NCBI GenBank assembly: GCA_009995045.1
Contig: JAACQG010000017.1
Location: 1 to 48,489 of the forward strand
DNA length: 48,489 bases
From: Alphaproteobacteria bacterium
GTDB lineage: Bacteria > Pseudomonadota > Alphaproteobacteria > Micavibrionales > Micavibrionaceae
Reading direction: 5' to 3'
The notes under the pieces are model-generated. The model worked only from the letters and a program-made list of their open reading frames with translations, was not told the DNA's origin and did no database searches. Every line of letters begins with the position of its first letter. Within the stretch, counting starts at the first letter, position 1. This document shows, piece by piece, positions 26,842-26,961 of the stretch. A program made the position numbers and the translations under genes.

Positions 26842-26961
26842 AGATGCGTGCCTCTTTTTATATGATCGAGGGGCATCATGAGTCAAAGCGATTCGTGGGT
26901 CAAGATAAAAATAGGATTCATGTAATGGAATCAGGACTCTATTACAGACTCTTAAGACTCT
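26842..26961 (-). promoter_or_regulatory. ccrM promoter region with seven GANTC sites
   Basis: The 120 bases between rnhB and ccrM hold GANTC at 26880, 26890, 26915, 26928, 26935, 26947 and 26956 (first bases), seven in 81 bases. On the minus strand TTGACC (26898-26903) and CATGAT (26875-26880) are 17 bases apart and would start a transcript near 26868 that keeps the ribosome site. A second pair, TTGACT (26881-26886) and TATAAA (26857-26862), is 18 apart but starts too close to the ATG. GANTC sites overlap both candidates, so methylation could alter promoter use. Confidence 0.65.

Follow-up and report, generated by a model that had tools for sequence, protein, structure and literature searches.

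The ccrM locus

The DNA analysed here (the window, 48,489 nt of the Micavibrionaceae contig JAACQG010000017.1, assembly GCA_009995045.1) belongs to a Micavibrio-like draft genome of 1.89 Mb (1,889,516 bases), whose closest named relatives, as judged by CcrM, are metagenome-assembled genomes filed as Micavibrio sp. or as Alphaproteobacteria. On the minus strand, the gene for the GANTC adenine methyltransferase CcrM follows rnhB, and the gap between the two holds seven GANTC sites. A sequence-only reading of this DNA had listed these seven sites and two more within rnhB; all nine coordinates proved exact on recount, and the three GACTCT copies that it described, spaced by 12 and 9 bases, are present. 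The features of the locus are as follows (offsets are counted from TTGAC).

25744..26841, minus strand: ccrM, GANTC adenine methyltransferase, 365 aa, ATG start at 26841 (Pfam and PDB matches)
26842..26868, minus strand: predicted ccrM mRNA leader with a GAGG ribosome-binding-like stretch, its start assumed to lie about 7 bp past the -10 element
26842..26961, minus strand: rnhB-ccrM intergenic region, 120 bp, seven GANTC (site count)
26875..26880, minus strand: putative -10 element CATGAT, preceded by a 17-bp spacer (A and last T invariant in 42/42 order loci)
26880..26884, no strand: GANTC core site 2, offset +19, abutting the -10 element with one base in common
26890..26894, no strand: GANTC core site 1, offset +9, mid-spacer (+8 in most relatives)
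26898..26903, minus strand: putative -35 element TTGACC (conservation; TTGAC-N14-GANTC tested against shuffles)
26915..26919, no strand: GANTC upstream site, offset -16 (congener test)
26928..26932, no strand: GANTC upstream site, offset -29, 13 bp from the -16 site (congener test)
26935..26939, no strand: GANTC upstream site, offset -36 (congener test)
26947..26951, no strand: GANTC upstream site, offset -48 (congener test)
26956..26960, no strand: GANTC, offset -57, weakly conserved (congener test)
26962..27612, minus strand: rnhB, ribonuclease HII (Pfam RNase_HII, 1.1e-39)
26972..26992, no strand: two more GANTC (26972, 26988), coding, in the last rnhB codons

A TTG at 26886, which is an alternative ORF start for ccrM, falls within the putative promoter. 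An rnhB match is present in 23 of 30 ccrM loci, and some of the remaining seven loci end at contig edges.

CcrM and GcrA are alphaproteobacterial hallmarks. A ccrM match was found in 57, and a GcrA match in 56, of the 58 genomes of the group (our own included). The CcrM of the window matches Pfam N6_N4_Mtase (7.3e-65) and, C-terminally, RAMA (6.5e-18), and its residues 10-365 align with the solved Caulobacter CcrM (PDB 6pbd, 3.1e-154). The gcrA gene of the same genome is intact (G000:C2:59291-59722) and its product matches the DNA-binding and sigma-interacting domains of the solved Caulobacter GcrA; structures of GcrA with polymerase (PDB 7ye1/7ye2) were also returned by the structure search. 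GANTC methylation is described on Micavibrionaceae contigs of another community in PMC9296519. Separate from this gcrA, a 72-aa open frame (G000:C14:8174-8326) matches only the C-terminal part of GcrA, and short C-terminal GcrA-like frames likewise occur in G004, G007, G015 and G027. The NCBI taxonomy places Micavibrio under Bdellovibrionota, yet the Micavibrio-like genomes here carry CcrM and GcrA.

The GANTC cluster is exceptional in its genome

The window holds 88 GANTC sites against a dinucleotide-shuffle mean of 183, and 61 stretches of the genome, the window among them (1,080,728 of 1,889,516 bases, 57%), hold 1,667, or one per 648 bases. The earlier reading had set the cluster against a chance rate of one site per 256 bases: the excess is real, but that rate understates it. 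By a rough Poisson estimate, at least seven GANTC in 81 bp would be expected with a probability of 8.5e-11 per position, or about 1.6e-4 for the genome. The ccrM cluster is the densest within the 61 stretches (7 sites per 81 bp; 9 per 120 bp counting the two in rnhB), and this 57% of the genome holds no equally dense cluster elsewhere, which upholds its description as striking. A crude gene call over the first 41 stretches (716,148 bases) gives the same picture: by intergenic GANTC count ccrM comes first of 399 intervals, 318 of which are without any site, and this with a ccrM interval that the TTG start had cut to 75 bp and six sites. GANTC is slightly richer in intergenic than in coding DNA by this call (1/526 vs 1/687).

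Genome-wide depletion of GANTC was rejected as evidence of methylation. In the own-genome sample GANTC stands at 0.39 of expectation and three other palindromes, CTNAG, CCNGG and GGNCC, at 0.35-0.37; since these are just as rare, the depletion is not specific.

A conserved core with the geometry of a sigma70 promoter

Laid side by side, the ccrM upstream regions display TTGAC, a 17-bp spacer and CATnnT, a sigma70-like promoter unit, and in the window two GANTC sites (26880 and 26890) lie between the -35 and -10 elements of this putative promoter. A consensus scan alone makes its -35/-10 call at chance level (1 found, 0.8 expected in shuffles), and so the promoter call rests on conservation. 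The sites had been described as a single array. They are indeed clustered, but they are not homogeneous, comprising a promoter core with fixed spacing and a set of upstream sites.

Sought in the 265 bp around the ccrM start, the register TTGAC-N14-GANTC occurs in 43 of the 56 order loci (against 4 of 2,800 letter shuffles), in 55 of 66 other named loci, many titled Rhodobacterales (1 of 3,300 shuffles), and in 31 of the 76 loci sampled across the class (1 of 3,800 shuffles); conservation in related species is thus borne out in the order, the other named loci and the class sample. The order set comprises 55 loci of relatives (G041 and G052, with partial ccrM, being excluded from the 57 genomes with a match) minus L006, L010, L044 and L048 at contig edges and L055, whose start was not found, together with six loci moved, by CcrM identity and title, from the named set. 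The latter consisted of the best 80 loci by CcrM similarity, from which seven duplicates and L112 (contig edge) were also dropped, and it is not an even sample because its loci were picked in this way. The class sample was drawn evenly: besides our own, 101 genomes had a match and 89 loci were taken, of which 12 were dropped (start not placeable) and L180 was left out as belonging to the same family.

The 43 matching order loci were selected by their TTGAC and GANTC matches; the window is not among them and one is a duplicate (L061 = L015), which a wider promoter tally also counts (44/57 at full score). Core site 1 stands at offset +8 in 39 of the 43, and at +9 in the window. The middle letter of both core sites carries only about 0.5 bit (43 loci, 42 distinct, without the window), and therefore it is the methylation palindrome that is kept, not a longer word. 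The A and T of the -10 element, which were not used in the selection, are kept in all 42 distinct loci. In 29 of these 42 motif-selected loci the -10 element is itself overlapped by a third GANTC, in every case GATTC; it is missing in the window and in the congeners L004, L012, L014, L016 and L018.

Upstream sites and the size of the array

For each 5-mer of the window promoter, we asked whether its outer four letters stand at the same offset in six of the seven same-genus relatives (the seventh, G006, extends just 55 bp upstream). The test is anchored on TTGAC, which is retained by construction, and partly on the +19 site. At exact offsets the -48, -29, -16 and +19 sites score 5/6, -36 scores 4/6, -57 scores 1/6 and +9 scores 0/6; with one base of slack the -16, -29, -48 and +9 sites each score 6/6, -36 scores 5/6 and -57 scores 2/6, so that six of the seven sites score 5-6. 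The 56 non-site 5-mers average 0.54 of 6 (0.80 with slack), and those that reach 5 lie only at the -35 anchor and, with slack, in one T run. The sites therefore look selected as methylation sites, to judge from the letters kept. Of the GACTCT spacings, the 12-bp step is conserved but the 9-bp step is not, because the -57 site is kept in 1/6 congeners.

The mean number of GANTC sites within 200 bp of ccrM is 5.70 for the order, 2.83 for the other named loci and 2.99 for the class sample, so that the order has an enlarged array.

Specificity of the core for ccrM

A sequence-only model of the core (R1) was built from 44 relatives with the window left out. Its rows were picked by a near-full match to the pattern (TTGAC, GANTC, -10 letters), and therefore invariance among them proves nothing. 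In our own 1.89-Mb genome the single match at E<=10 is the ccrM promoter (150 of 822 first-look candidates scored); this match, at 26873-26903, has an E of 0.04 and is weak (15.5 bits), its first site lying one base off the usual offset. At E<=0.5, 46 of the 58 genomes match, and the best match is at ccrM in 43 of these 46. As most of these genomes are training members, the informative part is the matches elsewhere than at ccrM at E<=0.05, of which there are only three in the 58 genomes (in G006, G027 and G049). Among 142 class genomes, 12 match at E<=0.05, nine of them beside ccrM (our own and G193 included); R1 is thus too order-specific, and the ccrM upstream regions of the class were therefore compared directly. 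To judge from these matches, the core looks like a promoter form belonging to one gene rather than a general GcrA site. The tests free of circularity are the shuffles of the register, the held-out window scored with R1, and the upstream sites in congeners.

Proposed self-control of ccrM

Considering the sites, their promoter-like geometry and conservation, the retained GA and TC letters, the ccrM-specific core and the presence of both CcrM and GcrA, all of which are observed, we think it quite probable that this region is a GcrA/sigma70 promoter of ccrM through which CcrM controls its own synthesis. Seven copies of the enzyme's target site, two of them in the likely promoter, and the recurrence of this arrangement in relatives suggest that CcrM probably sets its own level by marking the switch of its gene.

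We propose that ccrM is transcribed from a promoter of the sigma70 type, with CcrM recognition sites making up its spacer and -10 edge, and that CcrM would methylate this promoter. GcrA, an m6A-dependent sigma70 cofactor, would bind the methylated core sites, which lie where a cofactor of this kind would be predicted to act, and would help RNA polymerase to open a promoter with the non-consensus -10 element CATGAT; methylation of the core would in this way be activating. The upstream sites may tune the response, either by binding extra GcrA or by also needing re-methylation, and the promoter would thus read the methylation state of many sites, which replication would halve and CcrM restore. 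We think it more likely that the core sites activate and that the upstream sites contribute delay or shutoff.

This proposal draws on work in Caulobacter. The ftsZ promoter has a GANTC between its -35 and -10 elements, and its activity rises from non-methylated through hemimethylated to fully methylated DNA (PMC3708114); start sites with a GANTC so placed are set apart as a timing class (PMC4287350). At methylated promoters, GcrA makes polymerase bind more tightly and open the DNA faster (PMC7403470). The footprint of GcrA on ctrA P1, as reported in PMC3667746, covers about 12 nt on hemimethylated DNA and runs from -35 to +7 on fully methylated DNA, a widening which means that either activation or self-shutoff is possible.

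Several findings count against a GcrA-dependent promoter of this form. PMC4287350 finds a GANTC in the 50 bp upstream of just 31% of the cell-cycle start sites to which GcrA binds in Caulobacter. The exact TTGAC-N14-GANTC register is missing in 13 of 56 order loci and 45 of 76 class loci. Coreless ccrM loci include those of Loktanella (L101, L128), Hirschia (L118), Filomicrobium (L114) and G033 (L046), the last with no GANTC in the 260 bp upstream of ccrM. The extended GcrA motif YGAKTCK (as used in PMC7987155, which reports this preference to be absent in Brevundimonas) fits one of the seven window sites, that at 26890; the -10-overlapping GANTC of the relatives fits it in 28 of the 30 rows that have this site (one row being a duplicate). 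In G020 the promoter is present (L025) and a GcrA hit is absent, possibly through an assembly gap. As a separate observation, the two Loktanella promoters are without either core GANTC, whereas most loci listed alongside them keep both.

Alternative explanations

The proposal could be right in its parts and wrong in its sign. With negative feedback, full methylation would shut the promoter, hemimethylation after replication would open it and CcrM would reclose it, GcrA binding locally and activating on hemimethylated DNA and coating the fully methylated array so as to block polymerase. Seven closely spaced sites would suit such coating, the DNase footprints of GcrA on ctrA P1 widen on full methylation (PMC3667746), start sites with GANTC outside the -35/-10 interval are lowest at 40-60 min (PMC4287350), and the GC skew of two complete relatives puts ccrM at the terminus (below). 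The ftsZ promoter, the best analogue with a site in the spacer, is however most active when fully methylated (PMC3708114), and we regard negative feedback as a tentative possibility that is, on balance, somewhat doubtful. Methylation might also act directly on RNA polymerase, on -10 melting or sigma contacts, with no part for GcrA. The base shared by the +19 site and the -10 element would fit this, as would the third GANTC over the -10 element in 29/42 loci; we think it improbable, given that GcrA is found in nearly every genome of the group (56/58) and that upstream sites outside the melted region are also conserved in congeners.

A shielding switch, in which a protein such as MucR covers the sites and keeps them unmethylated, thereby marking the promoter as off, has a precedent in Caulobacter, where MucR shields GANTC in several promoters, one of them with four sites (PMC5172544). 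The congener test reveals no second motif, its conserved words being the sites, the -35 element and, with slack, one T run, and a shielding protein appears very improbable here. Little recommends the remaining readings, which as a group we hold to be scarcely credible: a chance cluster, a hairpin or terminator in the RNA, or GANTC sites incidental to ordinary control by CtrA. The Poisson estimate and the recurrence of the register across the class speak against chance. The full CtrA motif, TTAA-N7-TTAA as given in PMC4287350 and sought as a sign of CtrA regulation of the Caulobacter/Rhizobiales type, occurs within 120 bp upstream of ccrM in 0/56 order loci, 0/66 named others and 2/76 class loci (full sites only scored). 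The leader strand shows mild extra folding (z -1.56), but 16 of 200 shuffles fold equally well, and RNA structure was rejected; no terminator-like site was found at the ccrM promoter.

DnaA control was also considered, searching for the DnaA box TTATCCACA. Exact boxes within 120 bp upstream of ccrM number 4/56 in the order, 6/66 in the named set and 3/76 in the class (shuffle means 0.00, 0.07 and 0.13), and the loci that have one include L012, L022, L046, L063, L070, L072, L080, L107, L123 and L124. With one mismatch allowed there is no clear excess in the order (4 vs 2.03 expected). No exact box occurs in the window, and therefore DnaA was rejected as part of the explanation here.

Relation to known systems

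GcrA control of ccrM is less new than had been supposed. PMC7987155, a study of 13 alphaproteobacterial species, already predicts it across orders, concluding that ccrM probably belongs to the core targets of GcrA and that this control was lost in Caulobacterales. That study arrives at the same pair of gene and regulator, from extended GANTC upstream of ccrM, and the loss in Caulobacterales fits the coreless Hirschia promoter (L118). Its score ignores site location, and its section 11 gives neither the -35/-10 register nor an array in Micavibrionales. The literature searched (mainly open-access main texts) yielded no description of the promoter grammar, of a core confined to ccrM or of the array in Micavibrionales.

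Caulobacter ftsZ and mipZ resemble the ccrM promoter as proposed here in having a required GANTC (within -35/-10 in ftsZ, near the start in mipZ) and in being raised by CcrM (PMC3708114). They differ in having one conserved CGACTC each, with a second site near that of mipZ (PMC3708114). Caulobacter ctrA P1 is a GcrA- and methylation-dependent promoter, as proposed here for that of ccrM, but it has one CcrM site, at -28/-29, and is not the methylase's own promoter (PMC3667746, PMC4287350). The ccrM promoter here combines two core sites with four registered upstream sites, unlike ftsZ and mipZ, and does so on the methylase gene itself.

The Caulobacter ccrM promoter, reportedly the subject of a study by Stephens in 1995, is another methylase promoter that its own methylation probably influences. 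In PMC3973325 an effect of methylation on Caulobacter ccrM itself is called most probable. That promoter differs in being activated by CtrA (PMC3667746), a full site for which is found at none of the 56 order loci. If our proposal is true, the older timing of CcrM in many alphaproteobacteria may be that of a methylase reading its own mark through a fixed promoter grammar, and CtrA control as in Caulobacter would be a replacement of this self-reading mode. The register (-35, 17 bp, two GANTC, -10) is precise enough for point mutations to test it directly. Loci of the order, which range from 0 to 9 GANTC within 200 bp of ccrM, form a natural series in which site number could be set against the behaviour of an epigenetic switch.

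Chromosomal position and timing

GC skew was followed in two single-contig relatives (20 stretches of 20 kb each). In G028 it flips between 1.13 and 1.25 Mb, with ccrM at 1.187 Mb, and in G030 between 1.50 and 1.60 Mb, with ccrM at 1.572 Mb; parB lies near the opposite flip in both. In a third single-contig relative, G051, ccrM stands at 81% of the distance between parB and the point opposite it (judged by distance only). Placement at the terminus implies late hemimethylation, and the position in the two complete relatives suggests a replication-completion sensor. PMC8116508 places ccrM near the origin in Rhodobacterales and halfway along in Caulobacterales, with a similar position in Rhizobiales; terminus placement is therefore not class-wide.

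A fuller version, which we consider unlikely, would make ccrM of Micavibrionales a replication-completion sensor with a built-in counter, giving a once-per-cycle pulse without CtrA. As a terminal gene, it would have its array hemimethylated only at the end of replication; the hemimethylated state would turn ccrM on via GcrA at the core sites; and CcrM would re-methylate the sites one by one, so that shutoff would come only after most were restored, the many sites converting a gradual enzyme into a sharp pulse. More simply, terminus placement would couple re-methylation to the end of replication.

Other GANTC-rich regions

The second densest cluster of the genome sample (L272:6266-6455, G000:C25; 5 sites per 81 bp, 7 per 120 bp) covers the rsmH (mraW) start and DNA upstream of it. 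The ORF behind rsmH is FtsL/DivIC-like (a weak Pfam hit, below the cut-off), so that the cluster would stand in front of a probable operon for division and the cell wall; it is followed by a 92-bp tandem repeat (2.3 copies) with GANTC inside. Another five sites per 81 bp fall within a prmC-like coding region (L169). Three GANTC-rich intergenic regions, L161:5175-5416, L176:15567-15880 and L176:19073-19480, precede ftsK, nrdB and a reductase/kinase pair (ribonucleotide reductase large chain and a pyruvate-kinase-like gene), respectively, so that replication and division genes stand behind them; in the third the sites are far from the reductase start and closer to the other gene. A fourth such region (L156) adjoins a phage-integrase gene.
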